Below, one piece after another: positions 15,980-33,539 of a stretch of 35,949 nt of DNA. The stretch comes from Deltaproteobacteria bacterium (GTDB taxonomy: Bacteria; Desulfobacterota; Binatia; DP-6): assembly GCA_005879795.1 (NCBI GenBank), contig VBKJ01000141.1:1-35949 (forward strand). Direction: 5' to 3'. The notes below the pieces were generated by a model. The model was not told where the DNA came from. It saw only the letters and a list, made by a program, of their open reading frames with translations, and did no database searches. A program made the position numbers and the translations under genes. Numbering within the stretch: position 1 is the first letter of the stretch; every line of letters starts with the position of its first letter.

Positions 15980-17644
15980 CTACTGCGCTTGCAGGAGCAC
16001 GCGGCTTCCGGCGCGAGCCACCAGCGCGTGCGGAGCGGGAGCGAGCTTCCCCTCCGCCCCGGGCGGCGCCACGTCGTCGCTCACCCAGAAGGCTGCGCCC
16101 TCGCGCCAGATCCGCCCGACCTCCGCCGGAGACGTGAACAGCCGCTCCGCGCGCCCGGCGAGGAACGTCGGAGGCACCCACCCCGGGGGGGCGAGAAGAT
16201 CGAGCGGCTGCCGGAGGTAGTACTCGAGCCCTCCGCACAGCTGGTACTCGTCCGATGCGCGGAAGAAGACGCGAGCTCCATTCGGAGCGCGATCGTGGAT
16301 CATCTGGGCGAAGGGACGCCACGAGAAGAGCGCCTCGACGCGTTCGTGGGCGACCTGGACCACGACGAGAAGCACCGCCGTCCCGGCGATGCCGATCCCC
16401 ATCGCGAGGCGGGCTCGCTGCGTGGCGAGGAGGAGCGCCATGCCGCTCAGCACCGCGGCGAGCAGGAGCCCGGTCGGCCGGACGAGCGCGTCGAGGCCGA
16501 GGCCCGTGAACGTCGGCTCGATCCAGGCGATGAGCCGACCGGGTGGGAGGAGCAGCACACCGAGGGCGAGCGCCGCCCCCGCTCCCAGCGGACCGACCAG
16601 CCAGCCGAGGCTCACGCGGGAGCGAGCGTCGACGAGCAGGGCTCCGACGAGGAGCGCCGTCGCGGGGAGTGCGGGCAGCGAGTAGTGCTCGAGCCGCGAG
16701 GGCGCCAGAGCGAAGAAGCCCACCACCACCGTCACCCAGGCCGCGAGCAGGCCGACGGCGGGTGCGCGCGCGGGATCGTCGCGGGCCGTGCGGTAGGTCC
16801 ACACGCCCGCCGCCGGGAGCAGGAGGCTCCAGGGGAGGCCCCGCGCCGGGAACATGGCCAGGAAGAAGCCGAGCGAGTCCGGGAGCGAATCGCGCGGCAG
16901 CTTCTGGTCGAAGAAGAAGAGCACGTGCTGGTTCACCACGTAGTCCCAGAGGAAGCCCGGGTTGCGGAGCGCCGCCAGCGCGTGCCAGGGGCCGGCGAGG
17001 ACGGTCAGCACGGCGATCCCGACCGGCGCGTGGAGCGCTCGCAGGCGAGCGATCAGGGTGCGTGGACGGAGGACGCCTTCCCCGGCCTCGGTCGCGGCGA
17101 TGATTCCCGCGGGAAGTACGACGGCAAGGAGCCCCTTGTCGAGCATCCCCAGTCCGATCGTCGCCCACAAGGCGACGGCCGTGAGGACCCCGCCGCCGCG
17201 TCGCAGCCGGACGTACCAGTAGAGCGCGAGCGTGATGGCGAGCACGAGCACCATGTCCGCGCGCAGCAGCCGCGACTCGACGAAGAAGCCGACGCTGGTG
17301 GCGAGGAGCAGCGCCGCCGCCACGCCCGCGCCCTCGCCGAACAGCAGCGCGCCGAGGGCACCGGTCACCGCGACCGTGCCGAGCCCGGCAAGCGCCGGCC
17401 AGAGGCGAGCGTGCTCCGTCGGTCCGGTGAGGGTGAACAGCGCCGCAGAGAGCCAGTACATGAGCGGCGGCTTGGTGAGGAACGGCTCATCGTTCATGCG
17501 AGGCGTCACCCAGTCGCCGCTGGCCAGCATCTCGCGCGCCGGCTCGGCGAACATCCCTTCCGTGTCCGAGAACCCCGGCCGCCCGAGTCGCCAGAAGAAG
17601 AGCGGAGCGACGACGACCAGGACGGCGACGAGCCGCCGGCTCAT
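15980..17644 (-). CDS. ArnT/PMT-like lipid-linked sugar glycosyltransferase
   Basis: A 554-aa polytopic enzyme of the GT83/PMT_2 type, which moves a sugar from a polyprenyl-phosphate donor onto an acceptor at the periplasmic face. The first periplasmic loop has the characteristic acidic-rich FSDTEGMFAEPAREML, followed by FLTKPPLMYWLSA and many transmembrane helices. The C-terminal 120 residues are soluble, as in ArnT. The ATG overlaps the stop of the amidotransferase gene upstream by 4 bp (ATGA), indicating translational coupling. Donor and acceptor cannot be read from the sequence. Family candidates include lipid A, teichoic-like polymers, proteins or hopanoid-like lipids. Confidence 0.88.
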   Translation of the reverse strand: MSRRLVAVLVVVAPLFFWRLGRPGFSDTEGMFAEPAREMLASGDWVTPRMNDEPFLTKPPLMYWLSAALFTLTGPTEHARLWPALAGLGTVAVTGALGALLFGEGAGVAAALLLATSVGFFVESRLLRADMVLVLAITLALYWYVRLRRGGGVLTAVALWATIGLGMLDKGLLAVVLPAGIIAATEAGEGVLRPRTLIARLRALHAPVGIAVLTVLAGPWHALAALRNPGFLWDYVVNQHVLFFFDQKLPRDSLPDSLGFFLAMFPARGLPWSLLLPAAGVWTYRTARDDPARAPAVGLLAAWVTVVVGFFALAPSRLEHYSLPALPATALLVGALLVDARSRVSLGWLVGPLGAGAALALGVLLLPPGRLIAWIEPTFTGLGLDALVRPTGLLLAAVLSGMALLLATQRARLAMGIGIAGTAVLLVVVQVAHERVEALFSWRPFAQMIHDRAPNGARVFFRASDEYQLCGGLEYYLRQPLDLLAPPGWVPPTFLAGRAERLFTSPAEVGRIWREGAAFWVSDDVAPPGAEGKLAPAPHALVARAGSRVLLQAQ

Positions 17645-19530
17645 GCGCCGCAGTACGTGGCCGCCCAGAGCTGGAACATGAGCAGCGTCCAGAGCTCCTT
17701 GCGATGGTTGGCCGTGCCGCAGAGGTGCCGGTCGAGCAGCGCGGACACGTAGCGGGCATCGAATATGCCCTGGCGGCGCAAGCGGCCGGGGGCGAGCATG
17801 TCGGTCAGCGGGTCGCGCAGCTCCCCCCGCAGCCAGGCTCCGGTCGGCACACCGAACCCGTGCTTGCGACGCCGCGTCACGCGCGCCGGCAGGACGGCGC
17901 GGGCCGCCCGCCGGAGGAGCGGCTTCGTGCGCCACAGACCGGCGCGGAGGTCTACGGGAAGGCCGAGAACGTACTCGGCGAGGCGGCGGTCGAGAAAGGG
18001 TGCACGCACCTCGAGCGCGGTCGACATCGACGAACGATCAGCCTGCACGAGATTGTCTTCGGAGAGGTAGAAGATCAAGTCCAGCGCAGTCGCGATCTCT
18101 CGGGCGGACCGCGGTCGGAGCGGCGCGATCCCGTCGTACGCCTCCTCGTAGGGCTCCGGGTCCCGGATCTCGCGGTGAACGTCCGGGACGAGCAGGCGGC
18201 CGAGCGTCTCGGGCGCGAAGCTCCCCATCCAGCGCAGGTGTCGCTCGAGCGCAGGCCGTCTCGCCTCGCGCAAGAAGCGGCGCAGGGCGAAATCGAAGCT
18301 CAGGTAGCGGTGCGAGGTCGGCAGACGCCCGGCGGCGGCGACGAGCGCGCGATGTAGCACGGGCGGAACACGCGCGTACAGATCGGCGGCTCCATGGGCG
18401 GTCTGGGTGGGATAGCCGCAGAACAGCTCGTCGCCGCCATCTCCCGAGAGCGTGACGGTGACGTGCTGCCGCGCCAGCCGGGCGAGGAGCACGGCGGGCA
18501 GCGCGGTGGCGTCGGCGAAGGGCTCGTCGAAGAAGCGTGCCACGTCGGGCAGGAGCTCGCGCGCCCCGCTCGGCGTCAGGACGACCTCGTGATGCTCGGT
18601 GCCGAGCCTCGCGGCGACGTCCGCGGCCGCTGCCCGCTCGTCATAGGTCGACTCGCCGAAGCCGATGGCGAACGTCTTGACGGGGCGCGGCGACTCGGCG
18701 GCGGCCAGGGCCGTGACGAGGCTCGAGTCGAGTCCGCCCGAGAGAAAAACCCCCCAGGGCACGTCGCAGACCACGCGGCGGCGTACGGACCGGCGCAGGA
18801 GGTCGAGGACGCCCTCGGCGGCCTCCCGCATCGTCGGCCGGATGGCCCGCGGCGCCGGGGGTGTCCAGTAGCGGCCGCCGGTCTCCGAGCCGTCCGCGCT
18901 CACGGCCATCCAGTGAGACGGCGGCAGCTTGCGCAGCGCACGGAAGATCGCACGCGGAGCGGGCACGTAGTCGTGGGTCAGGTAGCGAGCGAGCGCCTGC
19001 CAGTCGAGCTCGCGCGAGACGCCGGGGTGCATCAAGAGCGCCTTCGGCTCGGAGGCGAACAGCAACGTCCGTGGCAGGCGCGCATAGTAGAGCGGCTTCT
19101 CCCCGAAGCGATCGCGGGCGAGAACGAGACGCTGCAGGCGCCCGTCCCACAATGCAAAGGCGAACATGCCCTCGAGGCGCTCGAGGCACGCCGGCCCCGC
19201 GTCCTCGTACGCGTGCACGATCACCTCGGTGTCCGTGCGCGTCGTGAAGAGGTGTCCCTTCCCCCGCAGGTCGTCCCGCAGCTCCCGGGCGTTGTAGATC
19301 TCCCCGTTCGCCACCAGCCGGATGGATCCGTCCTCGTTCACCAGGGGCTGCTGGCCCGTCACCAGATCGACGACGCGGAGACGCCGTGCCGCGAGCCCGA
19401 CGCAGCCGTCGGTCCAGATGCCGCGCTCGTCCGGCCCCCGGTGCGCGATGGCGGTGGCCATCGACTCGAGGACGTGCCGCGACGGCGACGTGCTCCCGTC
19501 GAGCTCGAGGACTCCGACAATGCCGCACAT
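17641..19530 (-). CDS. asnB: Asparagine-synthetase-like glutamine amidotransferase (AsnB family), copy 1
   Basis: A 629-aa class II glutamine amidotransferase. Cys2 in MCGIVGVLE is the nucleophile once Met is removed, and RGPDERG, NGEIYN and the SGGLDSS PP-loop (about 258) of the ATP-pyrophosphatase domain are intact. True AsnB makes asparagine, but many EPS/LPS-associated homologues transfer ammonia to sugars or lipids instead. Here the gene is translationally coupled to an ArnT-like glycosyltransferase, which argues for a role in glycan or lipid modification; this is inference. The C-terminal part (EVRAPFLDRRLAEYVLGLP) follows the usual family layout. Its promoter region is shared with the divergent response regulator at 19653. 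Confidence 0.88.
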   Translation of the reverse strand: MCGIVGVLELDGSTSPSRHVLESMATAIAHRGPDERGIWTDGCVGLAARRLRVVDLVTGQQPLVNEDGSIRLVANGEIYNARELRDDLRGKGHLFTTRTDTEVIVHAYEDAGPACLERLEGMFAFALWDGRLQRLVLARDRFGEKPLYYARLPRTLLFASEPKALLMHPGVSRELDWQALARYLTHDYVPAPRAIFRALRKLPPSHWMAVSADGSETGGRYWTPPAPRAIRPTMREAAEGVLDLLRRSVRRRVVCDVPWGVFLSGGLDSSLVTALAAAESPRPVKTFAIGFGESTYDERAAAADVAARLGTEHHEVVLTPSGARELLPDVARFFDEPFADATALPAVLLARLARQHVTVTLSGDGGDELFCGYPTQTAHGAADLYARVPPVLHRALVAAAGRLPTSHRYLSFDFALRRFLREARRPALERHLRWMGSFAPETLGRLLVPDVHREIRDPEPYEEAYDGIAPLRPRSAREIATALDLIFYLSEDNLVQADRSSMSTALEVRAPFLDRRLAEYVLGLPVDLRAGLWRTKPLLRRAARAVLPARVTRRRKHGFGVPTGAWLRGELRDPLTDMLAPGRLRRQGIFDARYVSALLDRHLCGTANHRKELWTLLMFQLWAATYCGA

Positions 19531-19561
19531 GGCTGCCGCCGTAAGGCTAGCGCCGCTTCCA

Positions 19562-19577
19562 TGAAGACATCATGAAG
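19562..19577 (+). promoter_or_regulatory. Predicted response-regulator box, direct repeat TGAAG-N6-TGAAG
   Basis: TGAAG occurs at 19562-19566 and again at 19573-19577, an 11-bp period matching one helical turn, the layout bound by dimers of OmpR/PhoB-family regulators. It lies between the divergent amidotransferase and regulator genes. The same pair of half-sites, in the opposite orientation, lies in front of the efflux operon (21730-21745). Confidence 0.5.
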
Positions 19578-19652
19578 CCGCCGGCCCTCGGGCGGTCCCC
19601 GCTTTCCGGCGGGTGTGCCGCTCGGCTATAGGAGGTGCTCCCCGCCAGGGCG

Positions 19653-20330
19653 ATGAGACTGCTCGTGATCGAAGACGACCGCGCCCTCCTCGCGGCATTG
19701 GGCGACGGGTTGACCGCGCGCGGCTTCGCGGTGGACCGCGCGCCGAGCGCCGAGACCGCCCTCGACCTGCTGCACGTGAACCCCTATGACCTCGTCGTGC
19801 TCGACGTCGGGCTCCCGGGCATGGACGGCCTCTCCCTGCTCCGGGCCCTGCGCGGCAGGGAGAACGCGGTGCCCGTCCTCATCCTCACCGCGCGTGGCGA
19901 GGTCGCCGACCGTGTCGCCGGGCTGGATGCGGGCGCGGACGACTACGTCGTCAAGCCGTTCGCGTTTCCCGAGCTCGTGGCGCGCGTGCACGCGTTGCGC
20001 CGGCGCCATACGCCGGCCGTCGCGCTGGTGCTGCGCGTGGGCGACCTCGAGCTCGACCCCCGCCGCTTCCACGTCCGACGCGGTGGCGTCCCGGTGTCGC
20101 TCACCGCGAAGGAGTTCGCCATCCTCGAGTACTTCATGCGTCACGCCGGCGAGCTCGTCACGCGCACCATGCTCCTCGAGAACTGCTGGGACGAGAACTA
20201 CGATGGGCTCTCCAACCTGGTCGACGTCCACGTGAGCCGGCTCCGCCGGAAGATCGACGGGGCCGGCGCCGCGTCGCTGCTGCACACCATCCGGGGCGCG
20301 GGATTCGTGCTCGACGAGCGTGCGCGGTGA
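19653..20330 (+). CDS. OmpR/PhoB-family response regulator
   Basis: A 225-aa two-component regulator. The receiver domain (residues 1-115) has the acidic pair in VIEDDR, phospho-acceptor Asp51 in VVLDVGLPGMDG, the Thr79 switch in LILTARG, and Lys101 in VVKPFAFP. The C-terminal winged-helix domain (about 125-225) has the typical LTAKEFAILEYFMRH and SNLVDVHVSRLRRKID, ending TIRGAGFVLDE. It should control the adjacent efflux operon in response to the kinase encoded immediately downstream, whose GTG overlaps its stop by 4 bp. The ATG at 19653 begins the conserved RLLVIEDD; an in-frame GTG at 19635 would overlap the ribosome-binding site. Confidence 0.92.
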   Translation: MRLLVIEDDRALLAALGDGLTARGFAVDRAPSAETALDLLHVNPYDLVVLDVGLPGMDGLSLLRALRGRENAVPVLILTARGEVADRVAGLDAGADDYVVKPFAFPELVARVHALRRRHTPAVALVLRVGDLELDPRRFHVRRGGVPVSLTAKEFAILEYFMRHAGELVTRTMLLENCWDENYDGLSNLVDVHVSRLRRKIDGAGAASLLHTIRGAGFVLDERAR

Positions 20331-21700
20331 GGCGGCCGCGGAGCCTCCGCTGGCGACTGACGCTCGCGTTCGCGAGCCTGGCGGGGACCGCCGTGCTGGC
20401 CGCGTCGGTCGGCACCGTCATCCTGGTCGAGCACGCGGTGTGGGGCCCCATCGATGCGGCGCTCGAGGAGGAGGCGGAGACGCTCGCCGAGCTCGGCGAT
20501 GCGGCCCGCGCCGGGGACTTCTCCCGGGCCGTCGCTCGAGTCGCCGACGAGCGAGGCTTTGGCGCCTGGAAGTGCGACGGGAAGTTCGTCCGGATGCGGG
20601 CCGTCGACGGCCGTGTGCTCGCCGCATCGGGAACGATCCCCGCCGCGCTCGCGGAGGAGGCGGCCCCCGCTGTGCGCGCGACCCGGTACGCCACGATCGG
20701 GCAGGGCAGGACCGCGTACCGGATCGTCTGGTACGCCGCGCCCGGCGTCGGGTGGAGCGAGATCGGCGTTCGCGTGGGACGGGAGCTGCGCACGGTGCGC
20801 CGGGCGCGGCTCGCGATCGGGGCGTCGGCCGCGTTGCTCCTCGGCGCGCTCGCCTTCCTCGCGTGGGCCATGACGACCCGCGCCACGGCCGAGATCGGCC
20901 AGCTCGCGGCTCAGCTCGAGACCCTCGAGGCGTCCTCGCTCGACCGCCGCCTGGCTTCCGGCCGCACCACCGAGGTGGACCGGCTCGTCGCCGTGCTGAA
21001 CCGGCTGCTCGGCCGTCTGGAGACGGCGGTCGGCCACCTGCGCCGATTCACCGCGGACGCGGCCCACGAGCTACGCACGCCGATCGCGGCGCTGAGGGCA
21101 CACCTCGAGGTCGCCCTTGGCCGTGGCGGCTCCCCGGACGGCTATCGCAACGGCCTCCTCGACGCGCTCGAGCAGACCGAGAGGCTCGGACGGCTGGCGG
21201 CGGACCTGCTCACCCTGAGCGCCGTCGAGGCCGGTGTGGGCGGCACCGGGGTCGTTCGCCTCGACGCCGTGGCGCGCGAGGTGGCGGACTTCCTCGAGCC
21301 CGTGGCACAGGAGCAGGGCCGGCGCTTCGCGTGCGAGAACGAGCAGCCGGTGGCGGTGTGCGGTGCCCCGGACCTGTTGAAGCGCCTCGTGCTCAACCTC
21401 GTGGACAACGCCTTCCGCCACACGCCGCCCTCCGCCGCCGTGCGCCTCGCGGTGCGCTCGGACGCCGGCAGAGCGACGATCGAGGTGCATGACGACGGTC
21501 CGGGCATCCCGGCGGCGGATCTCCCGCAGGTCTTCGGGCGCTTCCGTCGGGGTCGGGGCGCGACGACGGGCACCGGGCTCGGCCTCGCACTGTGCCAGGA
21601 AATCGCGACACGCCACCAGGGGCGCATCGCGCTCGAGAGCGCGGCCGGGGTCGGGACGCGAGTCATCGTGACCCTGCCCCTCGCCGACGCGCGCTCCTGA
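20327..21700 (+). CDS. Sensor histidine kinase (CusS/QseC-like)
   Basis: A 457-aa inner-membrane kinase. TM1 is about residues 10-33 and TM2 about 165-185, with a periplasmic sensor domain of about 130 residues between them, including a WKCDGKF stretch that has one cysteine. A short HAMP follows, then the H-box FTADAAHELRTPIAALRAHLE with phospho-accepting His247. The ATP-binding domain has N (LVLNLVDNAFRHTPP), G1 (DDGPGIP), F (FGRFRRG) and G2 (GTGLGLALCQ) boxes. It begins with GTG overlapping the regulator's stop. Domain architecture is like heavy-metal or drug sensors, but no known metal ligand pattern is evident. It presumably activates the regulator that controls the TolC/RND operon. Confidence 0.92.
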   Translation: MRRPRSLRWRLTLAFASLAGTAVLAASVGTVILVEHAVWGPIDAALEEEAETLAELGDAARAGDFSRAVARVADERGFGAWKCDGKFVRMRAVDGRVLAASGTIPAALAEEAAPAVRATRYATIGQGRTAYRIVWYAAPGVGWSEIGVRVGRELRTVRRARLAIGASAALLLGALAFLAWAMTTRATAEIGQLAAQLETLEASSLDRRLASGRTTEVDRLVAVLNRLLGRLETAVGHLRRFTADAAHELRTPIAALRAHLEVALGRGGSPDGYRNGLLDALEQTERLGRLAADLLTLSAVEAGVGGTGVVRLDAVAREVADFLEPVAQEQGRRFACENEQPVAVCGAPDLLKRLVLNLVDNAFRHTPPSAAVRLAVRSDAGRATIEVHDDGPGIPAADLPQVFGRFRRGRGATTGTGLGLALCQEIATRHQGRIALESAAGVGTRVIVTLPLADARS

Positions 21701-21729
21701 AGGCGCTGGCCGTTTCAGCTGGGGCGCAT

Positions 21730-21763
21730 CTTCACGCTCGCTTCATCGATGGACGGCTACACT
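21730..21763 (+). promoter_or_regulatory. Predicted efflux-operon promoter with response-regulator box
   Basis: CTTCA at 21730-21734 and 21741-21745 (TGAAG-N6-TGAAG on the minus strand) repeats with an 11-bp period. A -10-like TACACT lies at 21758-21763, 12 bases after the repeat, and no good -35 is present. That is the geometry of PhoB/OmpR-activated promoters, where the regulator box replaces the -35 region. The same half-sites occur upstream of the regulator gene. Confidence 0.5.
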
Positions 21764-21836: not shown

Positions 21837-23078
21837 ATGGCGAGAAGAGCTGCGCGAGGGGCACTCGTCGCAGTCCTCTTGAGCACCGCGCCGGGCGGGT
21901 CTGCAGCCGCCACACCGCTCGCGCTCGACGAAGTGCTCGCGCGCGCGCGGGCAGCGAGCCCGGCGCTCCGCGCCGCGGCGGCCGAGCTCGACGCGGCGCG
22001 CGGACGCCTCCGCCAGGCGCGCCTCGTGCAGACGAACCCCGTCCTATCGGCCGACCTCGCGCGCCACACCGAGCCGGGCCTCAGGGACGCCAAGGACCGC
22101 GGCGTGCAGCTCGAGCAGGAGATCGAGGTGGGCGGGCAACGCGGGCTTCGCATCGCGGCCGCGGAGCACGACGTGACCCATGCGGAACACCTCCTCGCCG
22201 ACCGCCGCCGCACGGTCGAGGGCGAGGTACGGCGGGCGTTCTTCGCGCTCGCCGCCGCCGAGCGCCGGCAGAAGCTCGCCGCCGAGCGGCTCGCGCTCGC
22301 CTCCCGCCTCGCCGAGGCCGCCCGCCGACGCACCCGCGCGGGCGAGACGGGCGCGCTCGACGCCCGCCTGGCCGAGGTCGAGACGGCGCGCGCGGCGCAG
22401 GAGAAGACCGCCGCCGAGGCCGAGCACGCGCGCGCCGAGGGCCGCCTCGCGCTCGCGATGGGCGCCGAGCCCGGCGAGCCGCTCTCCGTGTCGGTGGAGG
22501 ATCTGGCGCTCGCCCCATCGCCGGCCGAGGACGAGCTCGTGGCCCGCGCGCTCGAAGCCCGTCCCGACCTGGCCGCCGCACGCGAGGAGCGCGCGCGCCT
22601 CGAGGGCGAGGCGCGCCTCACGGCGCGGCGCGGCCGCATCCCGAACCCCATCCTGCGAGGCTTCTACCGCGAGGAGCGGCTCCAAGAGCACGTCGCGGGC
22701 GGCGGCCTGTCGGTGCCGCTGCCGCTCTTCAACCGCGAGCAGGGCACCGAGGCGTCGCTCCTCGCCCAGGCCCGCGGCGCCGCCGCCGAGGAGGCGCGCC
22801 TGCGGGCGCAGATCCCGCGCGACGTCCACCTGGCGCTCGCCCACCGCCGCACCGCCGAGGAGGCCTGGCGCCGCTACGAGCGCGAGGCACTGCCCGCCGC
22901 CACCCAGGCCCGCGACCTCCTCGAGCGCGGCTTCGACGCGGGCTATCTCGCCCTCCCCGATCTCCTCCTCCAGCAGGACCGGCTCCTGCAGGTGCGCGCG
23001 GGGGCGATCGACGCCTGGCTCGATCTCCACGTCGCCGAGGCGGATCTGGTCGAGGCGATGGGCGGCGTCGCGCCATGA
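21837..23078 (+). CDS. TolC/CusC-family outer-membrane efflux channel protein
   Basis: A 413-aa outer-membrane factor with an N-terminal signal peptide (MARRAARGALVAVLLSTAPG then GSAAA) and the alpha-helical barrel repeats of OEP proteins: LDEVLARARAASPALRAAAAEL near residue 30, a second matching repeat after residue 230 (ELVARALEARPDLAAAREE), and conserved GGGLSVPLPLFNREQG before it re-enters the beta-barrel region. The family forms trimeric channels that accept substrates from RND pumps via an adaptor. The ATG at 21837 begins a good signal peptide; the frame extends upstream without family similarity. The stop overlaps the next ATG by 4 bp (ATGA), so the three efflux genes are coupled. It lacks a lipobox. 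Confidence 0.88.
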   Translation: MARRAARGALVAVLLSTAPGGSAAATPLALDEVLARARAASPALRAAAAELDAARGRLRQARLVQTNPVLSADLARHTEPGLRDAKDRGVQLEQEIEVGGQRGLRIAAAEHDVTHAEHLLADRRRTVEGEVRRAFFALAAAERRQKLAAERLALASRLAEAARRRTRAGETGALDARLAEVETARAAQEKTAAEAEHARAEGRLALAMGAEPGEPLSVSVEDLALAPSPAEDELVARALEARPDLAAAREERARLEGEARLTARRGRIPNPILRGFYREERLQEHVAGGGLSVPLPLFNREQGTEASLLAQARGAAAEEARLRAQIPRDVHLALAHRRTAEEAWRRYEREALPAATQARDLLERGFDAGYLALPDLLLQQDRLLQVRAGAIDAWLDLHVAEADLVEAMGGVAP

Positions 23079-23956
23079 GGTGGCGGCGCCTGGTCGCCGT
23101 CACGGCGCTCGTGCTCGCGTGCGGGCGGCCTGCGGACGAGGCGCACGAGGAGAGCGCGCCGCGGGAGCCCGAGGTCCCCGGGATCGAGACGGGGCTCGCG
23201 ACGACCGCCGCGATACGCGACGTCGTGCGCGCCTTCGGCACGGTGCTCGCCGAGGGCGAGCCGCCCGAGGTGCGTGACGCGCGGACCGCGCTCGCGGAGG
23301 CGGAGGCCCGTCGCACGCTCGCCGCGCAGCAGGTCCGCAGGCTCGAGTCGCTCGCCGGCGGTGTGGCCCCGCGCAAGGAGCTGGACGCGGCGCGGGCCGA
23401 GGCGGTGAGCGCCGCCGCCGCCGCCGACCGGGCCCGCAAGGTGCTCGCCGCCTTCGGCGGCGACGTCGCGCGGGCGGCGCTCGGCCCGCACGAGTTCTGG
23501 GTGATCGCACGCGTCATGCAGATAGACGTGCCGCGCGTCGACCCGAGGGCCGAGGCGAGCTTCGTGGCGGACGCCTTCCCGGGGGAGCGCTTCGCCGGCA
23601 GCGTCGACACCGGCCCGAGCTACGTCGATCCCGCCACGCAAACGGCGCCGGTCCGCGTCCGTGTCCACGATCACGACGGGCGCTTGCGTCCGGGCATGAC
23701 TGGCGCCGTGGCGCTGGAGGTGGGAACCCCGCGCGAGGCGGTGGTCGTACCGACGGGTGCCGTCGTCTACGACGACGCGCAGCCGCTCGTCTTCGTCGCG
23801 GAGGCGGGCCGCTACGTGCGGCGCCCGGTCGGGCTCGGGATCGCCCGCGACGGGCGGGTCGAGATCACCTCCGGCGTCGAGGCGGGAGCACGGATCGTCG
23901 TCACCGGCGCGGCGAGCCTGCTCTCGGCGTCCCGTCTGCCGGCGGGCGAGGACTAG
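23075..23956 (+). CDS. Short lipoprotein periplasmic adaptor (membrane fusion protein) of an RND pump
   Basis: This 293-aa protein has an N-terminal lipobox ALVLAC (Cys16), so it is anchored by lipid. The remaining sequence follows the CusB/CzcB adaptor order: a beta strand (VVRAFGTVLAEGE), an alpha-helical hairpin (about 65-125, DARTALAEAEARR...ELDAARAEAV), then a beta-barrel (FWVIARVMQIDVPRVDPRAE, TQTAPVRVRVHDHDGRLRPG) and a C-terminal membrane-proximal part. Most adaptors are 350-400 aa and have two lipoyl half-motifs flanking the hairpin. Here both junctions (VLAEGEPPEVRDAR and FGGDVARAALGPHEFWV) skip them, so the lipoyl domain seems absent. The start overlaps the channel gene stop, and the RND gene begins 11 bp after its stop. 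Confidence 0.85.
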   Translation: MRWRRLVAVTALVLACGRPADEAHEESAPREPEVPGIETGLATTAAIRDVVRAFGTVLAEGEPPEVRDARTALAEAEARRTLAAQQVRRLESLAGGVAPRKELDAARAEAVSAAAAADRARKVLAAFGGDVARAALGPHEFWVIARVMQIDVPRVDPRAEASFVADAFPGERFAGSVDTGPSYVDPATQTAPVRVRVHDHDGRLRPGMTGAVALEVGTPREAVVVPTGAVVYDDAQPLVFVAEAGRYVRRPVGLGIARDGRVEITSGVEAGARIVVTGAASLLSASRLPAGED

Positions 23957-23967
23957 GAGGCCTAGCG

Positions 23968-26900
23968 ATGGTCGCGCGCCTGATCCGGGCGGCGCTCACG
24001 CACCCGCCCGTCGTCTTCGTGCTGGCGGCGGCGCTCGTCGCCGCCGGCGTGTGGAGCGCGCATCGGGCGCCGCTCGATGTCTTCCCGGAGTTCGCGCCGC
24101 CGATCGTCGAGGTCCAGACCGAAGCGCCGGGGTTCGCCGCCGAGGACGTCGAGGCGCTGGTCACGACCCCGCTCGAGCGCGCCCTCGGCGGGATGCCGGG
24201 GGTCGCGAAGCTACGCTCGTCCTCGGCGCTCGGGCTGAGCGTCGTGAGCGCGGTCTTCGACTACGGGACGGACCCGTATCGCGCGCGCCAGCTCGTGATC
24301 GAGGCCGTCGCGCTCGCCGGGGGGCAGCTGCCGCGCGGCATCACCCCGGCGGTGGCCCCGCTCTCCTCCGTGCTCTCCTGGGTGCTCGCCATCGGGCTGC
24401 GCGGCGACCCGGACGTCTCGCCGCTCGTGCTGCGCGACCTGGCGGAGTGGACGATTCGGCCCCGTCTCCTTTCGGTTCCCGGCGTCGCCAACGTGGTCAT
24501 CTACGGCGGCGGCGTGCGGCAGATCCAGGTGACGACGACCCCGGAGCGTCTGCTCGCGGCGGGTGCGACGCTCGACGACCTGGCCGCGGCCGTCGGCACC
24601 GCCGATGCCGCCGCCGGCTCGGGCTTCCTCGATCGCCCGGGGCAGCGGCTGCTCACCTGGTTCGACGGGCGCGTGCATGGCGCGGATGACGTCGCGCGCG
24701 CCCTGCTCCCGGGCCGCGACGGCGGGCCGGTTCCGGTGGCGGCCGTCGCCGATGTGGCCGACGGCCCCGCGGTGCCCATCGGGGACGCGATCGTGAACGG
24801 CGATCGCGGCGTGCTGCTCATGGTCTCGAAGCAGCCCCAGGTGAACGTGGTGGCGATCACGGAGGGCGTCGAGGCGGCGCTGCGCGCCATCGTCCGTATC
24901 CTCCCGCCGGGCGTGCGTGTCGACGAGGCGCTCTTCCGCCAAGCGAGCTTCGTCGAGCACGCGCTCGGCAACCTGCGCCGCGCGCTCCTCGCCGGCGCGG
25001 TGCTCGTCATGATCGTGCTGCTGCTCTTCCTCGGCCACCTGCGCGCGGCGCTGGTGAGCGTCGTCGCCATGCCGCTCTCGCTCCTCGCTGCCGTGGTGGT
25101 GCTGGGCGGCGTCGGTGCGACGCTCAACGTGATGGTGCTCGGCGGCCTCGCGATCGCGGTCGGCGAGGTGGTGGACGATGCGATCATCGACGTCGAGAAC
25201 GCCTGGCGCCGCCTGCGCGCCGCCCCACCCGGCGCGCGGGCGCTGGACGTGATCCTCGCCGCCTCGGTCGAGGTGCGCAGCGCCGTCGTCTACGCGACCG
25301 TCATGGTGGCGCTCGTGTTCCTTCCCGTCTTTCTGCTGGGCGGGCTCGAGGGCGCGCTCTTCCGGCCGCTAGCGCTCGCCTACGTTCTCGCGACGCTCGC
25401 CTCGCTCGTGGTGGCGCTCACGGTGACGCCGGCCCTCTGCCTCGTGCTCCTGCCCGGCGCCGTCGCCCGGCACCAGGAGCCGCCGCGGCGCGTGCTCGCG
25501 CTGCGCGCGCGCTACGAGCGCGCGCTCGGCCGTGCGCTCGACCGGCCACGAAGGGTCCTGCTGGGGAGCGTCCTCGCCCTGATCGCGGGCGTCGCGCTCG
25601 TTCCCCTGCTGCGGCTCGAGTTCCTGCCCGAGTTCCACGAGACCAACTTCGTCATGCACATGACCGGCGCGCCGGGCGTCGGCCTCGGCGAGTCGACGCG
25701 CGTCGGCGCGGCGGCCGAGCGGGCGCTCCTCGGCGTGCCCGGCATCCAGTCGGTGGCGCAGTTCATCGGGCGTGCGACTCTCGCCGAGGACCACGGCTTC
25801 GGCGCCGAGCGCAGCGAGCTGCTCGTCCGCCTGCGCCCGGACGCGGACGCGGCGGAGGTCACCGAGGCGCTCCGGGAGCGCGCGGCCACCATCGGCGGCT
25901 TCACCTTCGACGTGAAGCAGTTCCTGAACGAGCGCATCGAGGAGACCCTGGAAGGGGCGGGCGCCGCGCTGATCGTCCGGCTGCGCGGGCCGGACCTGGT
26001 CGCGCTCGAGCAGGCGGCCACGGCGGTGAGCCAGCGCCTCTCCGGGGTGCCGGGCGCGGTCGACGTGCATGCAGAGGGCGCGCTCGCCGCGCCCGGCATC
26101 CGGGTGCGACCCAGGCGGGACGACCTCCTTCGCCTCGGTCTGTCCGCTGCCGCGGTCGAGCGTGCGATCCGGAGCGCGCTCGGCGGCCTGCCCGTCGGGC
26201 GTGTGGTCGAGGCCGGGCGCCAGGCGGACGTGGTGCTGTACGTCGCTGCCGCCGACGACCCCGCTCGCCTCGCCCGGCTCCCGATCACCGCCGCCGGCAG
26301 CCGCGTCGTCGCCCTCGGCTCGGTCGCCGACATCGACCTGGGCCCGCTGCGCGCCGACATCGCGCACGAGGACGGGGTGCGGACGGTCGCGGTGCGGCTC
26401 AACGTGCGAGGTCGGTCGCTCGAGGCCGTCGCGCACGACGTGGCGCGCGCGGTGGCCGCGGCGCCGCTCCCAGCGGGGATCTACGCCGAGGTGGGGGGCG
26501 AGTACGCGGCGGCCGCCGCGGCTCGCACGCGTCTCCTCGGCCTCGGGGCGCTCGCCCTGCTCGGCATTTTCGTCCTGCTGGTGGTCGACTTCGGCTCGGC
26601 GCGGCTCGCCGGCCTCACCATGGTGAACGTGCCGCTCGCCTTCGTGGGCGGGCTCGCCGCCGTCCTCCTCGGCGCCGGCGGCCGGCTCTCCCTGGGTGCG
26701 ATCGTCGGCTTCGTCACCGTCTTCGGGATCACGATCCGCAACGGCATCGTCCTGGTCGCGCACTTCCTCCACCTCGAGCGGGAGCGCGGCGGCGCGCTCG
26801 ACCGGCCGGCGTTGGTGGCCGGCGCCGCGGACCGGCTCGCGCCCATCCTCATGACCGCGCTCACCACCGGCATCGCGCTCGTCCCGCTCCTCTTGCTGGG

Positions 26901-27027
26901 CGGGCGCGCCGGCGGCGAGATCGAGCAGCCGATGGCCCTCGTCATCGTGGGCGGGCTCGTCAGCTCGACCTGGCTCAACCTGTTCGTCGTGCCGCTGTGG
27001 TACGCGCGGCGCGCGCGGAGCGGGTGA
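23968..27027 (+). CDS. HME-type RND efflux pump (CusA/CzcA family)
   Basis: A 1019-aa inner-membrane proton-driven transporter with the RND double-repeat: TM1 (about 12-30), a large periplasmic domain to about 330, TM2-6 (about 330-480), TM7 (about 530-550), a second periplasmic domain, and TM8-12 (about 855-1010). FPEFAPPIVEVQTEAPGFA near residue 36 and the C-terminal GRAGGEIEQPMALVIVGGLV are characteristic of the CusA/CzcA group. In TM4 the motif reads AIAVGEVVDDAIIDVEN. Relative to the CzcA acidic triad, the first Asp is replaced and a Glu (residue 400) appears three residues later, while Asp403 and Glu410 are kept. Start: AGGAGG seven bases before the ATG. Substrate (metal ion or drug) is not determinable. 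Confidence 0.92.
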   Translation: MVARLIRAALTHPPVVFVLAAALVAAGVWSAHRAPLDVFPEFAPPIVEVQTEAPGFAAEDVEALVTTPLERALGGMPGVAKLRSSSALGLSVVSAVFDYGTDPYRARQLVIEAVALAGGQLPRGITPAVAPLSSVLSWVLAIGLRGDPDVSPLVLRDLAEWTIRPRLLSVPGVANVVIYGGGVRQIQVTTTPERLLAAGATLDDLAAAVGTADAAAGSGFLDRPGQRLLTWFDGRVHGADDVARALLPGRDGGPVPVAAVADVADGPAVPIGDAIVNGDRGVLLMVSKQPQVNVVAITEGVEAALRAIVRILPPGVRVDEALFRQASFVEHALGNLRRALLAGAVLVMIVLLLFLGHLRAALVSVVAMPLSLLAAVVVLGGVGATLNVMVLGGLAIAVGEVVDDAIIDVENAWRRLRAAPPGARALDVILAASVEVRSAVVYATVMVALVFLPVFLLGGLEGALFRPLALAYVLATLASLVVALTVTPALCLVLLPGAVARHQEPPRRVLALRARYERALGRALDRPRRVLLGSVLALIAGVALVPLLRLEFLPEFHETNFVMHMTGAPGVGLGESTRVGAAAERALLGVPGIQSVAQFIGRATLAEDHGFGAERSELLVRLRPDADAAEVTEALRERAATIGGFTFDVKQFLNERIEETLEGAGAALIVRLRGPDLVALEQAATAVSQRLSGVPGAVDVHAEGALAAPGIRVRPRRDDLLRLGLSAAAVERAIRSALGGLPVGRVVEAGRQADVVLYVAAADDPARLARLPITAAGSRVVALGSVADIDLGPLRADIAHEDGVRTVAVRLNVRGRSLEAVAHDVARAVAAAPLPAGIYAEVGGEYAAAAAARTRLLGLGALALLGIFVLLVVDFGSARLAGLTMVNVPLAFVGGLAAVLLGAGGRLSLGAIVGFVTVFGITIRNGIVLVAHFLHLERERGGALDRPALVAGAADRLAPILMTALTTGIALVPLLLLGGRAGGEIEQPMALVIVGGLVSSTWLNLFVVPLWYARRARSG

Positions 27028-27028
27028 G

Positions 27029-28381
27029 GTGGAGCGGCAGGCGCCTCGCCTCGGGGCGGGTGTCGCGCTCGCCCTGCTCGCGGCCGCGCTGCTCGGGGGC
27101 CGCCTCGGGGAAGGCGACCTGATCGGCGACCCGGTCATCTATGCCGCGGTCGCCAAGTCGATGCTCGTGCGCGGCGACTGGGCGACGCAGTACCTGGCCG
27201 GGCAGCCGTTCTTCGACAAGCCGCCGCTCGTCGTCTGGCTCGCGGCGGTCGCGTTCAAGGTCTTCGGTGTCTCCACCTGGAGCGCGCGGCTCCCGAGCGT
27301 GGGGCTCGGCATCGCCGCCTGCCTCGTCCTCTGGCGGCTCGGCGCGTTCCTGTTCGACGACCGGGTCGGGCTCGCTGCCGGCGCGTTCCTCGCGCTCACG
27401 CCGGGCTTCGTCCGCTTCGGGAGCACGCTCCTCCTCGACACGGCGCTCGTGCTGGGCGCGCTCGCCGGGCTCCTCGCCGCGGCACACGCCTTCGCGCGCG
27501 GCGGCCGCGGGCTCTGGTGGGCGGGGGTCTGGTTCGGCGTCGCCTTCCTCGGTAAGGGGGGGCTCGCGCTCGGGGCGCCGGCGGTGCTCGCGGTGCTCTG
27601 GGTCGCCACACCCGCGGCCCGCCGTCCGCCGTGGCGCACGGTCGCCGCCGCCGCGCTGGCGTTCCTCGTGGTCGTGCTGCCCTGGTACCTCCACGAGACC
27701 CGGTTGTGGGGCTGGCGCTTCGTGCACGGCTCCGTCAACGACGTGAGCAACAAGATGGGCGGGTATCCGGGCGCCGCCGTCTATCTGCGCGCGCTGGTGA
27801 CCACGCTGCCGTGGCTGCCGGTGGCGGCGCTGGGTGCGTGGCGGAGCTGGCGCGGCGCGGAGCGCGGCGACGGCCTCCGCCTCCTCACCGTGTGGACGCT
27901 CGTCGCGTACGGCTTCCTGTTCGCCGCGGCCAAGCACTCACCGCGCTACCTCATGCTGCTCCACCCGGCGCTCGGGCTGTGGGCGGCGCTGGCGCTCCGC
28001 CCCCTCCTGCCCGCGCCCCGCGCACTCGGGCTCTGGATCGCCGCCGGCGCCGGGCTCGCCTGGACGGTCATGCTGACCTGGCCGCTCCCGCTCCATCCCG
28101 GCGGCACGGGCGCCGCGGTCGTGGCGCTCGCCCCCGTGCTCGGCCCGCGCGACGCGCCGCTCGCCGGCTTCCGCCTGCGGCACCAGGGCACGCGCGCGCG
28201 CTTCGCCTTCTACGCCGACCGCGAGGACGTACGCACCTACGACGATCCCGACGCGCTGGCGCGCCTCGGCGCCGGCACGCCGATCGTGACCGCGCGCCGC
28301 GACGCGCCGGCGCTCGCCGCCGCCGGCCGCTTCGAGGAGGTCCGCCGGTCGCGCGACTTCGTCGCGTTCCGGGTGCGGTAG
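27029..28381 (+). CDS. ArnT/PMT-like glycosyltransferase
   Basis: A 450-aa multi-helix membrane enzyme of the GT83/PMT_2 type. The first periplasmic loop carries LIGDPVIYAAVAKSMLVRGD, with Asp at the position of the catalytic acidic residue of the family, then FFDKPPLVVWLAAVAF and about ten transmembrane helices. The soluble C-terminus is short (about 70 residues). It starts with GTG one base after the pump's TGA, so it may be cotranscribed with the efflux genes; this could be simple read-through rather than functional coupling. Its stop lies 7 bp from the end of the convergent glycosyltransferase gene at 28389. It is the smallest of the four ArnT-like genes here. Confidence 0.86.
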   Translation: MERQAPRLGAGVALALLAAALLGGRLGEGDLIGDPVIYAAVAKSMLVRGDWATQYLAGQPFFDKPPLVVWLAAVAFKVFGVSTWSARLPSVGLGIAACLVLWRLGAFLFDDRVGLAAGAFLALTPGFVRFGSTLLLDTALVLGALAGLLAAAHAFARGGRGLWWAGVWFGVAFLGKGGLALGAPAVLAVLWVATPAARRPPWRTVAAAALAFLVVVLPWYLHETRLWGWRFVHGSVNDVSNKMGGYPGAAVYLRALVTTLPWLPVAALGAWRSWRGAERGDGLRLLTVWTLVAYGFLFAAAKHSPRYLMLLHPALGLWAALALRPLLPAPRALGLWIAAGAGLAWTVMLTWPLPLHPGGTGAAVVALAPVLGPRDAPLAGFRLRHQGTRARFAFYADREDVRTYDDPDALARLGAGTPIVTARRDAPALAAAGRFEEVRRSRDFVAFRVR

Positions 28382-30041: not shown

Positions 30042-31195
30042 CAGCGGTCCCTCGGCGCCGGCCAGCCTTCGGCGCGGCAGGCGGGCGACTCACCCCGCCG
30101 CCGGCGTGCGTGGTCGAGCACGTGGCCGGAGAGGGCCACGGCACGCACGTCGATCGCCTCGGGCGCGACGCGCACACGGAGGTAGTGGGTCGCGGCGAGC
30201 CCGCGCGGGAAGTTCGGGTGGGGGGCCGGCGCGGGGTCGAGGTTCGCGCCGCCGCCCCCGCTCACGACCTCGAGCACGCGCGCGCCGGGCACGACGGTGC
30301 ATGCCGGCTCGGCGCGCTCGTAGAGGTGCGAATGGCCGGCGAGGAGGAGATCCACGTGGCCGGCCTCGAGCACCGGCTCGAGATGCCTGCGGAGCCCGGG
30401 CACGATCCGCTTCACCCCGGCGGTGAACGGCGGCTCGTGCAGGAAGACGATGCGCCACGGGCGCGCGGCCGCGCGCGCGAGATCCCCCGCCAGCCACTCG
30501 GGGTCACCGCCCTCGGCGCCCGAGAACTCGGACGACGACACCGACACGAGATGCGCGGCACCCCACTGGAAGGCGTAGTGCGGGCCCCCCGGCGGCTCGC
30601 CGCCGGCGATGGGCGCGAAGAGGTCGCCGTAGGCACTCCGCCCGCCGAGGTCGTGGTTGCCGGGCGTGGGGAAGAGGGGCACGCGGGCGAGCACGCGGCG
30701 GTAGGGGCGGAAGAAGCGCGCGTCGAGGGTGGGCGCGCGGGACGACGGGTAGGCCATGTCGCCCAGATGGACCAGGAAGGCCGGGCGTCCGGCCAGGATG
30801 CGCCGCGCCAGCGCGGCCGCCTCGCGGCTGCCGTCGCCCGTGTCGCCGACGGCGGCGAAGGTGAAGGGCTCGTCGGCTGCCGGTGCGGTGCGGAAGCGGA
30901 CCGTCCCCGCGGCCGCCCCGAGGCGGCAGACGTAGCGCGTGGAAGGCGCGAGCCCCTCCAGGCGCATCACCTGGAGGCCGCGGCCGCGCCGCGTGGCGGA
31001 CCCGTCCAGCGTCGCGCCGCCGGGGCCGCGGCAGCTCGCCCGCCCCCCGTCCGCACCCGTCCACACGACCGTCGCCGCGTCGCTGCTCACGCCCGACACG
31101 TACGCCCAGCCCGACGGGAAGCGCCCGTCGCAGCCCCCGAGCCCGATCGTCACCGCGAACGCTGCGAGGGCGCCCCTCCACCTCGCCCCGCTCAC
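30041..31195 (-). CDS. Lipoprotein metallophosphoesterase (purple acid phosphatase-like)
   Basis: A 384-aa secreted phosphoesterase. Starting at the GTG at 31195 the protein begins MSGARWRGALAAFAVTIGLG and has a lipobox GLGGC with Cys22, so it is a lipoprotein. An N-terminal fibronectin-like domain (SDAATVVWTG...TRYVCRLG) precedes the calcineurin-like domain with all metal-binding motifs: AVGDTGDG, LVHLGDMAYPS, PTPGNHD, FLHEPPF and AGHSHLYER. This layout matches purple-acid-phosphatase-like enzymes. The start overlaps the amidotransferase stop by 4 bp (GTGA), which fixes it; the frame extends further upstream only as antisense sequence. In an operon with a lipid-sugar transferase it might remove phosphate from a lipid or glycan intermediate, which is inference. 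Confidence 0.87.
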   Translation of the reverse strand: MSGARWRGALAAFAVTIGLGGCDGRFPSGWAYVSGVSSDAATVVWTGADGGRASCRGPGGATLDGSATRRGRGLQVMRLEGLAPSTRYVCRLGAAAGTVRFRTAPAADEPFTFAAVGDTGDGSREAAALARRILAGRPAFLVHLGDMAYPSSRAPTLDARFFRPYRRVLARVPLFPTPGNHDLGGRSAYGDLFAPIAGGEPPGGPHYAFQWGAAHLVSVSSSEFSGAEGGDPEWLAGDLARAAARPWRIVFLHEPPFTAGVKRIVPGLRRHLEPVLEAGHVDLLLAGHSHLYERAEPACTVVPGARVLEVVSGGGGANLDPAPAPHPNFPRGLAATHYLRVRVAPEAIDVRAVALSGHVLDHARRRRGESPACRAEGWPAPRDR

Positions 31196-33033
31196 GCGAC
31201 GCCGGCGCCCTCGCGCCAGAGCTGGAGGATGATGAGCGCCCACAGCTCGCGGCGGTTGTCGCGGCGGCACGCCACGTGCTCGTCGAGGAGCGTGCGCACC
31301 GCCTCGGGCCGGATGACACGGGGATCGAGCCGCTCGAGCGTGGCGCGCGCGAAGGGAAGGAGCGGGCCGGCGAGCCAGGCGGCGAGCGGCACGGTGAGCC
31401 CGCGCTTCACGCGCCGACGGATGGGGGGTGGCACCAGGTCGGCGACTGCTCTCCGCAGCACGCGTTTGGTCGCGAGGCCACGCACCTTGTGCTCGACCGG
31501 GAGGCGGCAGGCGAACTCGACCAGCCGGTGGTCCAGGTACGGCGCGCGCCCCTCGAGCGAGGCGGCCATGCTGGCCCGGTCGAGCTTGGGCAGCAGGTCA
31601 TCGGTCAGGTAGCCGGTCAGGTCGAGGGCGAGGAGGGCGTCGATCGCGCTCCGGGCCGGCAGCGGCTCGGGCTCGGGCGGGGCGGCGAGCGGCCCGCCCG
31701 GCGTGGCGAGCGCCGCCAGGCGCGCAGCGTCCACGCACCCGGTCCACGCCCGGTGGCGCGCCGCCGCCGGCCGATCGGCCTCCTCGAGGAAGCGACGGAG
31801 GAGGTAGCGCACGGTGGTGTTGCCCTGCGGCGCGCCCAGCGCGGGCGCGGCGGCCGCGACGGCCCGCCGCACGGCGGCGGGGAGGCGCGCGTAGCGGGCC
31901 GCGAGCGCCCCGCCCGGATAGGTCGGGTAGCCGGCGAAGAGCTCGTCCGCCCCCTCGCCGACCAGCACCGTCTTCACGTGCGAGCGCGCGAAGCGGGAGA
32001 GGAGAAAGGTCGGCACCCACGCCGGGTCGGCGAGCGGCTCGTCGATGAGCGGGGCGAGATCCCGCACCCCCTCCAGGAAGAGCGACGGGGTGATGGTGAG
32101 CGTGTGATGGCGCGTGCCGAGCGCGCGCGCGGCGCGGGCCGCGTGGTCGCGCTCGTCGAAGCCGCGCCGCTCGAAGCCGAGGGCGAAGGTGTTCAGCTCG
32201 CCGCCGACGGAGCGGGTGACGGCCGTGATGGCGGTCGAGTCGAGCCCGCCCGAGAGGAAGACGCCGAGCGGCACGTCGCTCACCAGCGCGGCGCGCACCG
32301 CGCGCACGAGGTGCGCGCGCAGCTCGGTCGCCGCGTCGTCGAGGCCGAGCGGCAGCGGCGGTGCGGCGAGGAAGGGCGCCACCTCCCAGTAGCGGTCGGC
32401 GCGCGCGGCCTCGCCCTCGAGCACGAAGCGGCCGCCGGGCGGGAGCTTCTGGATGGCCGCGAAGGCGCTCGCCGGGTTGGGTACGTAGCCGGTGCGGAGG
32501 TAGGCGGCGAGCGCGGCCCAATCCGGCTCGCGCCCGACGTGGCCCGAGGCGAGGAGGGCCTTCGGCTCCGAGGCGAAGAGGAAGCCCGCGGGGGTGGTGG
32601 CGTGGTAGAGGGGCTTCTCACCCATCCGGTCGCGCGCGAGCACGAGGCGGCGGTGGCGCGCGTCCCACAGCGCCAGCCCGAACATCCCGTCGAGCGCGTG
32701 CAGGAAGTCGAGTCCCTCGTCCTCGTAGAGGTGCGGCAGCACCTCCGCATCACTGCGGGTGCGAAAGCGGTGACCCCGGGATTGGAGCGCGGAGCGTAGC
32801 GCGGCGCTGTTGTAAATCTCCCCGTTGCATACGGCGATCACGTCGCCCGTCTCGTTGGCGAGCGGCTGCGCGCCGCCCGCGACGTCGATGATCGCGAGCC
32901 GCCGGCAGCCGACGCCGCCCGGGCCGCGCATCGCCCAGCCGTCGCCGTCCGGGCCGCGGTGCACGAGCGCCGCGCTCATGCGCGGAAGGGCCGCCTCCGC
33001 GCCGGCCCCCACCATCCCGTAGATGCCGCACAT
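31192..33033 (-). CDS. asnB: Asparagine-synthetase-like glutamine amidotransferase (AsnB family), copy 2
   Basis: A 613-aa AsnB-family protein. It begins MCGIYGMVG with the catalytic Cys2, has RGPDGDG, NGEIYN and the SGGLDST ATP-pyrophosphatase loop, and ends with the family's usual C-terminal helices (PYLDHRLVEFACRLP). It is a distant paralogue of copy 1 at 17641: the domain order is the same but the sequences differ throughout, so it is not a recent duplication. It is first in a three-gene operon with the phosphoesterase and an ArnT-like glycosyltransferase, mirroring the AsnB-glycosyltransferase pair of copy 1. The start ATG lies 62 bp from a degraded insert upstream. An amidation role in envelope glycan synthesis is inferred, not shown. 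Confidence 0.88.
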   Translation of the reverse strand: MCGIYGMVGAGAEAALPRMSAALVHRGPDGDGWAMRGPGGVGCRRLAIIDVAGGAQPLANETGDVIAVCNGEIYNSAALRSALQSRGHRFRTRSDAEVLPHLYEDEGLDFLHALDGMFGLALWDARHRRLVLARDRMGEKPLYHATTPAGFLFASEPKALLASGHVGREPDWAALAAYLRTGYVPNPASAFAAIQKLPPGGRFVLEGEAARADRYWEVAPFLAAPPLPLGLDDAATELRAHLVRAVRAALVSDVPLGVFLSGGLDSTAITAVTRSVGGELNTFALGFERRGFDERDHAARAARALGTRHHTLTITPSLFLEGVRDLAPLIDEPLADPAWVPTFLLSRFARSHVKTVLVGEGADELFAGYPTYPGGALAARYARLPAAVRRAVAAAAPALGAPQGNTTVRYLLRRFLEEADRPAAARHRAWTGCVDAARLAALATPGGPLAAPPEPEPLPARSAIDALLALDLTGYLTDDLLPKLDRASMAASLEGRAPYLDHRLVEFACRLPVEHKVRGLATKRVLRRAVADLVPPPIRRRVKRGLTVPLAAWLAGPLLPFARATLERLDPRVIRPEAVRTLLDEHVACRRDNRRELWALIILQLWREGAGVA

Positions 33034-33365: not shown

Positions 33366-33539
33366 CTACACCGTCCCCTTCTTTGACCTCCCTCTCCGCC
33401 CGAGCCTCTCCTCAATCGCCTCGATCACGAAGCGCATGACGGCGATGTCTTGCGTCACGCAGTGCAGCTTGACGCGACGGTGAAGCTCCTTCGGGATGCG
33501 CGTAGCCAACTGGGTCCACGCTTCGTTGTCCTTCGCCAT
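33366..33539 (-). CDS. Small ribbon-helix-helix (Arc-like) DNA-binding protein
   Basis: A 57-aa protein, MAKDNEAWTQLATRIPKELH then RRVKLHCVTQDIAVMRFVIE and AIEERLGRRGRSKKGTV. The pattern of a short strand (ATRIP) and two helices (KELHRRVKLHCVTQ, AVMRFVIEAIEERL) is that of Arc/MetJ/ParG-type regulators, often plasmid partition factors or antitoxins; no partner gene is seen. The chosen ATG at 33539 has AAGGCGG upstream; another ATG at 33557 would add six residues. By my count about 62% G+C, lower than the neighbouring genes, consistent with foreign DNA inserted between the glycosyltransferase and the amidotransferase. Confidence 0.6.
   Translation of the reverse strand: MAKDNEAWTQLATRIPKELHRRVKLHCVTQDIAVMRFVIEAIEERLGRRGRSKKGTV

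Follow-up and report, generated by a model that had tools for sequence, protein, structure and literature searches.

The 35,949-nt stretch of DNA analysed here (the window) carries the genes of an OmpR/PhoB-family response regulator and a sensor histidine kinase, bracketed by two short tandem repeats that we call sites A and B. Beyond site A lies a divergent AsnB-PMT operon, and beyond site B a run of TolC, adaptor, RND permease and glycosyltransferase genes (Table 1). The receiver domain (PF00072) and the Trans_reg_C winged helix (PF00486) of the regulator both score above cut-off, and its closest solved structures are PrrA, mycobacterial PhoP and PmrA/BasR. Its best NCBIfam match, the CztR/SilR/CopR model TIGR01387, falls short of the cut-off, as does the PmrA equivalog NF007928 (197.9 bits, cut-off 330). 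Regulator and kinase score best on the CztR/CztS heavy-metal models and the permease on the CusA/CzcA heavy-metal RND model, all below the curated cut-offs, and a heavy-metal label for these proteins would be tentative. The open reading frame of the TolC-type gene opens with an ATG just 4 nt past the -10-like hexamer of site B, and the in-frame ATG at 21837 is therefore the more likely start.

Table 1. Features of the locus, in order along the window
Feature	Position	Strand	Evidence and remarks
PMT-family glycosyltransferase, same operon as AsnB	15980..17644	-	PF02366/PF13231; 4-bp overlap with the end of AsnB
AsnB-type amidotransferase, downstream of site A	17641..19530	-	TIGR01536 456 bits, above cut-off 267; TIGR03108 below cut-off
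Site A composite, CTTCAT-gatgt-CTTCAT-N11-TAGCCT, towards AsnB	19544..19577	-	Exact match; 25.1 bits; includes the 19562-19577 box
TATAGG, candidate -10 of the regulator gene	19627..19632	+	Sequence; 49 nt from the edge of site A
OmpR/PhoB-family response regulator	19653..20330	+	Response_reg + Trans_reg_C; TIGR01387 222.9 bits, below cut-off 279.2
Sensor histidine kinase	20327..21700	+	HAMP/HisKA/HATPase_c; 4-bp overlap with the regulator
Site B composite, CTTCAC-gctcg-CTTCAT-N11-TACACT, towards TolC-adaptor-RND	21730..21763	+	Exact match; 29.9 bits, best in the window
TolC-type outer membrane efflux protein	21837..23078	+	OEP PF02321; ORF opens 21768
RND periplasmic adaptor	23075..23956	+	TIGR01730 above cut-off
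RND permease, CusA/CzcA-like	23968..27027	+	ACR_tran PF00873; TIGR00914 618 bits, below cut-off 701
PMT_2 glycosyltransferase (ArnT-like fold), next gene after the RND permease	27029..28381	+	PF13231

Two tandem repeats bracket the regulator and kinase genes

The original prediction placed two TGAAG-N6-TGAAG repeats in the intergenic regions on either side of the regulator and kinase genes, and both are there, 2.2 kb apart: one at 19562-19577 on the plus strand (TGAAGACATCATGAAG), the other at 21730-21745 on the minus strand (TGAAGCGAGCGTGAAG). A search of the whole window for further copies returned these two exact matches alone; with up to two mismatches allowed, the 8 matches obtained are at background level (6.7 expected), so that exact matches alone are informative. 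The 4,106,821 bases of the genome (G000) contain five exact copies, and the reversed-pattern control gives two. The three copies outside the window were rejected as regulon members. Two are coding, one in an RHS-repeat gene and one (L002, contig C78) in a dnaB gene apparently with an intein; the third (C5:2178), which is intergenic, partly coincides with a hairpin and lacks a TA at the N11 position of the composite element described below. This last copy (L001, 1500-1530) lies between a globin gene and a c-type cytochrome-like gene, the hairpin being GCGTGAAGAGATCTTCACGC, and a related regulator (46%) is encoded upstream of it.

Because the pattern had been picked after it was seen, the shuffle test left the choice of pattern free. 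Any 5-mer direct repeat shared by the two intergenic regions at a 10- or 11-bp period arose in 1 of 5000 dinucleotide-preserving shuffles of both regions, and at any equal spacing from 0 to 12 in 21 of 5000, so the pair of repeats is beyond chance. The predicted -10-like TACACT is indeed found at 21758-21763, 12 nt past the last TTCA, and the promoter scan detected no sigma-70-type promoter in the gap of either site. Each site consists of two direct half-sites at a 10-11 bp period before its predicted target genes, as in a tandem operator and not as in the palindromic operators of CztR/SilR/CopR; a CusR-type palindrome at the boxes was rejected on the same ground. When read in the TTCA direction all sites take the form STTCAY-N5-STTCAY, a pattern which occurs in the genome five times, in the same five places as TGAAG-N6-TGAAG.

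The boxes recur in relatives that encode the kinase

Orthologs of the kinase (50-62% identity) were found in three genomes of the same family (G004, G003 and G001) and, in two copies, in one genome of another family of the same class (G050). At E<=1e-80 the 148 class genomes held none beyond these four, a phylum scan of 395 genomes yielded no further orthologs, and the genome-contig scan gave kinase relatives at 27-44% only. As a counterpoint to our main reading, a clear ortholog is therefore present in five genomes only, G000 included. Gene models in the relatives, obtained with a simple codon-score predictor, are approximate.

Conservation before orthologous operons, which the original prediction had called for, is observed. 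G003 has an exact box (CCGTGAAGCCACGGTGAAGCC) before its regulator, with a PEMT/ICMT-like methyltransferase as the divergent gene, and G004 has GTTCATGGTGAGTTCATGG in its kinase-TolC gap (C301), a counterpart of site B with a spacing one shorter. G001 has no exact site, though its regulator is 68% identical, and carries weaker composites before TolC (GTTCACCTTCTCGTCACGAGGAGCGAGCTACCGC, one mismatch, in the kinase-TolC gap) and before PMT-GT2 (CTTCACGGAAGCGTCAGACCTCGACTGATAGCGG). The 7.8 Mb of G050 contain 10 boxes; six are concentrated on C641, a 29-kb contig that also carries the regulator/kinase ortholog. The C641 boxes precede an AsnB gene (35% to that of the window), two secreted proteins, an ArnT-regulator-kinase operon, an SDR (ArnA/UDP-xylose synthase-like)-TolC-adaptor-RND operon and the divergent genes of a fatty-acid desaturase, an FrmR-like repressor and a heavy-metal ATPase. 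The second regulator/kinase copy of G050 (L126, C549) has no TTCA box and no efflux genes nearby.

Some features of the relatives count against our main reading: the lack of an exact site in G001, the shorter spacing on C301 and the boxless second copy of G050, together with certain sites of G004. Those on contigs C35 and C50 of G004 have long leaders, and on C120 of the same genome (L164, 3989-4029) a triple half-site repeat forming a perfect composite sits in an arn-like cluster (ArnT, DegT aminotransferase, GT2) and faces the ArnT-like gene at its 3' end. The start codon follows the -10 by 7-8 nt at the ArnT and SDR genes of G050 (L125, 3873-3915; L158, 5867-5910) and at the methyltransferase gene of G003 (L123, 15069-15111), which suggests that these mRNAs are leaderless or nearly so.

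A composite element with a fixed distance to a -10-like hexamer

Comparison with the relatives defined the composite STTCAY-N5-STTCAY-N11-TA, in which an 11-bp tandem repeat is followed, 12 nt past the last TTCA, by a -10-like hexamer with no -35. A TA at this position (11 nt past the last Y, 12 nt past TTCA) is present in 12 of the 28 boxes of the five genomes, while the other offsets average 0.41 (binomial p ~2e-15). Six of these exact composites are the C641 boxes of G050, three lie in G004, two in G000 (both in the window), one in G003 and none in G001, and their hexamers read TAGCCT, TACACT, TAAACC, TAGTCC, TAGTGG, TAGGTG, TAGCCT, TAGGGG, TAGCTT, TAGCGG, TAGCGC and TACGAA.

The 143 class genomes without a kinase ortholog (638 Mb) contain 19 exact composites, from which 0.79 would be expected in the five ortholog genomes where 12 are seen (Poisson 6e-11). 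This comparison reuses part of the data that had led to the composite, although the sites on C35, C50 and C120 of G004 and those of G001 were found after its definition. Two or more exact composites occur in 3 of the 5 genomes with the ortholog and in 1 of the 143 without it. Coding or intergenic calls on the 19 background composites were left out of use, since the codon model had been trained on GC-rich genes. A leave-window-out matrix, trained on ten sites of G003, G004 and G050, is free of this overlap as far as the window is concerned. Among all window positions it ranks site B first and site A second (Table 1), the next position scoring 13.5 bits, and over 1.44 million background positions its maximum is 22.8 bits, none reaching 25. 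With the five exact genome copies, two of them coding, and the background-level scan at two mismatches in its favour, the idea of chance repeats in GC-rich DNA deserves next to no credit, contradicted as it is by the shuffle, offset, co-occurrence and leave-out matrix tests. The second AsnB gene (31192-33033) and a GT2-PMT_2 fusion gene (33716-35944), both on the minus strand, have no convincing box; a match near 33469-33485, tried for the second AsnB, was rejected, having no correctly placed -10 and only 5.4 bits.

Geometry at sites B and A

In the architecture I promoters of Salmonella PhoP, which are class II promoters with the box over the -35, a direct tandem box of 17 bp that lies 12 nt upstream of the -10 is active in place of a -35 and loses its function when flipped in place. 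PhoP boxes in reverse orientation work at distances of 37 and 48 nt, and natural examples range from 30 to 58 nt, with some at 47-49 nt (PMC3335776). Both window sites share the architecture I-like arrangement, in that the box is direct, lies about 12 nt upstream of the -10 and is not accompanied by a -35. With this geometry and no sigma-70-type promoter, site B thus fits activation of the TolC-adaptor-RND operon. OmpR-family regulators can also repress, and the boxes might mark repression by this regulator or by another transcription factor; this is very unlikely, however, for no -35 or sigma-70-type promoter was found that could be blocked, and the constant 12 nt between box and -10 is as in activated promoters.

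At site A the 12-nt spacing is found on the minus strand too, where TAGCCT (19549-19544) faces AsnB and ends 13 nt upstream of its ATG, an arrangement that fits activation of AsnB-PMT. The proposal that the amidotransferase/glycosyltransferase pair may belong to the regulon is strengthened by this activating spacing, and by the AsnB gene of the other family, which has its own composite. Relative to the regulator gene the orientation of site A is reverse. Since the site faces AsnB and not the regulator, autoregulation there is at best plausible, and a strand-swapped site A as a plain regulator promoter was rejected, the spacing not fitting. Bidirectional use, on AsnB and on the promoter of the regulator, is possible by analogy with PhoP, whose reverse boxes work at 37 and 48 nt, site A being 49 nt from TATAGG. 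In G003 a similar GCTATAGA stands before the regulator at 31 nt from the box, a reverse position that was inactive for PhoP in the reporter series, and the case for reverse-side activation of the regulator is therefore weak.

A related alternative is that site A is primarily an autoregulatory operator of the regulator gene and that the AsnB geometry is incidental. We consider this quite unlikely. The distance to TATAGG lies within the natural range of reverse PhoP boxes, and G003 retains a box at the place of site A though its divergent gene encodes a methyltransferase and not AsnB; but at site A and at the G003 box alike the divergent side offers a -10-like TA at the 12-nt distance, and the distance in G003 (to TATAGA) is again the inactive one. 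A clear case of autoregulation, to judge by its arrangement, would be the G050 box that drives the ArnT-regulator-kinase operon directly, and this direct orientation is found in G050 only. Upstream of the regulator, in the window (19602-19632) and in G003 (L123), CTTTC precedes TATAG by about 19-20 nt, which could represent a box-independent promoter.

TTCA repeats and residue 195 in other phyla

In 79 sequences upstream of regulator genes in other phyla, TTCA repeats are most frequent at exactly the 11-bp period, with 12 matches in 7 loci against about 1 (0-4) at other spacings, and this operator type is therefore not limited to the class of the host. The repeats, TTCA-N7-TTCA, precede related regulators at L053, L076, L079, L094, L049, L073 and L051 (among L036-L115), in Rokubacteria, Verrucomicrobia and Phycisphaerales. 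Some of these sites are triple repeats with TA at the offset of the composite, and at L076 and L079 the box lies between the regulator gene and a divergent SBP_bac_5 gene.

His195 of PmrA contacts bases (PMC4660055). The aligned residue is Ser in the window regulator and Ser, Gly or Cys in its orthologs; across class relatives and other phyla (L011-L115) it is non-His in 8 of 8 loci with a TTCA box, while 4 of the 5 loci with a TTAA box have His. Residue 195 may thus decide between TTAA and TTCA boxes in PmrA-like regulators, a pattern that we take as just a lead because the loci are few and the counts take no account of kinship.

The occurrence of TTCA-type repeats before other regulators of the subfamily in other phyla also bears on who binds the boxes. 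They could be real class II operators that serve chiefly a paralogous OmpR-family regulator encoded in this genome, or several such regulators together, in the way that CusR, CopR and CzcR share a single site in Pseudomonas (PMC11195947); related kinases are many in this genome (e.g., C112 at 38%). Such a division of labour is rather unlikely, though, given that exact composites are found mainly in genomes with the ortholog and, in G050, are clustered on its contig.

Discussion

The boxes, their spacing, their conservation and their co-occurrence with the regulator and kinase can be read in the sequence itself, and from them we infer binding by the encoded regulator, its phosphorylation, activation rather than repression, and a signal. 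In our judgement the OmpR/PhoB-family regulator whose gene lies between the two boxes probably uses them as its operators, each forming part of an activator-dependent promoter. A dimer of the phosphorylated regulator would bind two tandem STTCAY half-sites 11 bp apart, stand in for the missing -35 and recruit RNA polymerase to the -10 (TAGxxT-like) 12 nt past the last TTCA. Site B would turn on the TolC-adaptor-RND-PMT genes and site A the divergent AsnB-PMT genes, and site A may also act on the promoter of the regulator from the reverse side, so that the predicted regulon would join an efflux pump to envelope sugar and amide modification. The original prediction had called the repeats the operator of the efflux regulator. 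Its core stands, with an OmpR/PhoB-type operator tied to the regulator and kinase by co-occurrence and synteny and, before TolC, in an activation geometry, but "efflux" is too narrow, for the sites mark a mixed regulon of envelope modification and efflux, as far as the genes beside them indicate.

More tentatively, the system may represent an undescribed regulon of an uncultured lineage, PmrAB/PhoPQ-like and with a TTCA code of its own, in which a single regulator switches on an RND pump together with AsnB amidation, sugar transfer of the ArnT kind and further envelope enzymes via compact, sometimes leaderless class II promoters, and in which the switch from TTAA to TTCA tracks the loss of His195 across phyla. 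An isolated repeat thereby becomes an operator code that can be tested in an uncultured lineage, one that predicts regulon members, the places of transcription starts (about 7 nt past TAGCCT and TACACT) and residue 195 as a possible specificity setter. It would also link efflux with envelope sugar and amide modification under one regulator, a pairing that elsewhere accompanies intrinsic cationic-peptide resistance.

Among known systems, the heavy-metal regulators CusR, CopR, CzcR and AgrR belong to the best-scoring NCBIfam subfamily for regulator and kinase, and the window also has an adjacent CusA/CzcA-like RND pump; however, these regulators bind inverted repeats (PMC11195947, PMC7380067), whereas the repeat here is direct and the heavy-metal models score below cut-off. 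The PHO box of Streptomyces PhoP has GTTCACC units, nearly the same half-site, and shares the 11-bp unit (PMC4415409), but its regulon is that of phosphate in actinobacteria, and no phosphate genes were found among the targets predicted here. Salmonella PhoP shares the direct orientation, the 12-nt distance from box to -10 and the absence of a -35, and differs in its half-site ((T/G)GTTTA), regulon and host. The PmrA box of the enterobacterial PmrAB-arn lipid A regulon consists of two 6-bp half-sites in head-to-tail order, separated by 5 bp (PMC3973317). The sites described here have this tandem 6-5-6 layout, spacer and orientation included, with an OmpR/PhoB regulator and ArnT-type glycosyltransferases in the predicted regulon; they differ from it in the half-site (STTCAY here, CTTAAG/T or XTTAAT for PmrA), in the low PmrA score of the regulator, in the Ser at the position of His195 and in a regulon that includes an RND pump and AsnB. 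The proposed class II mechanism of activation is that known for the OmpR/PhoB family, and what is this lineage's own is the half-site and the predicted regulon.
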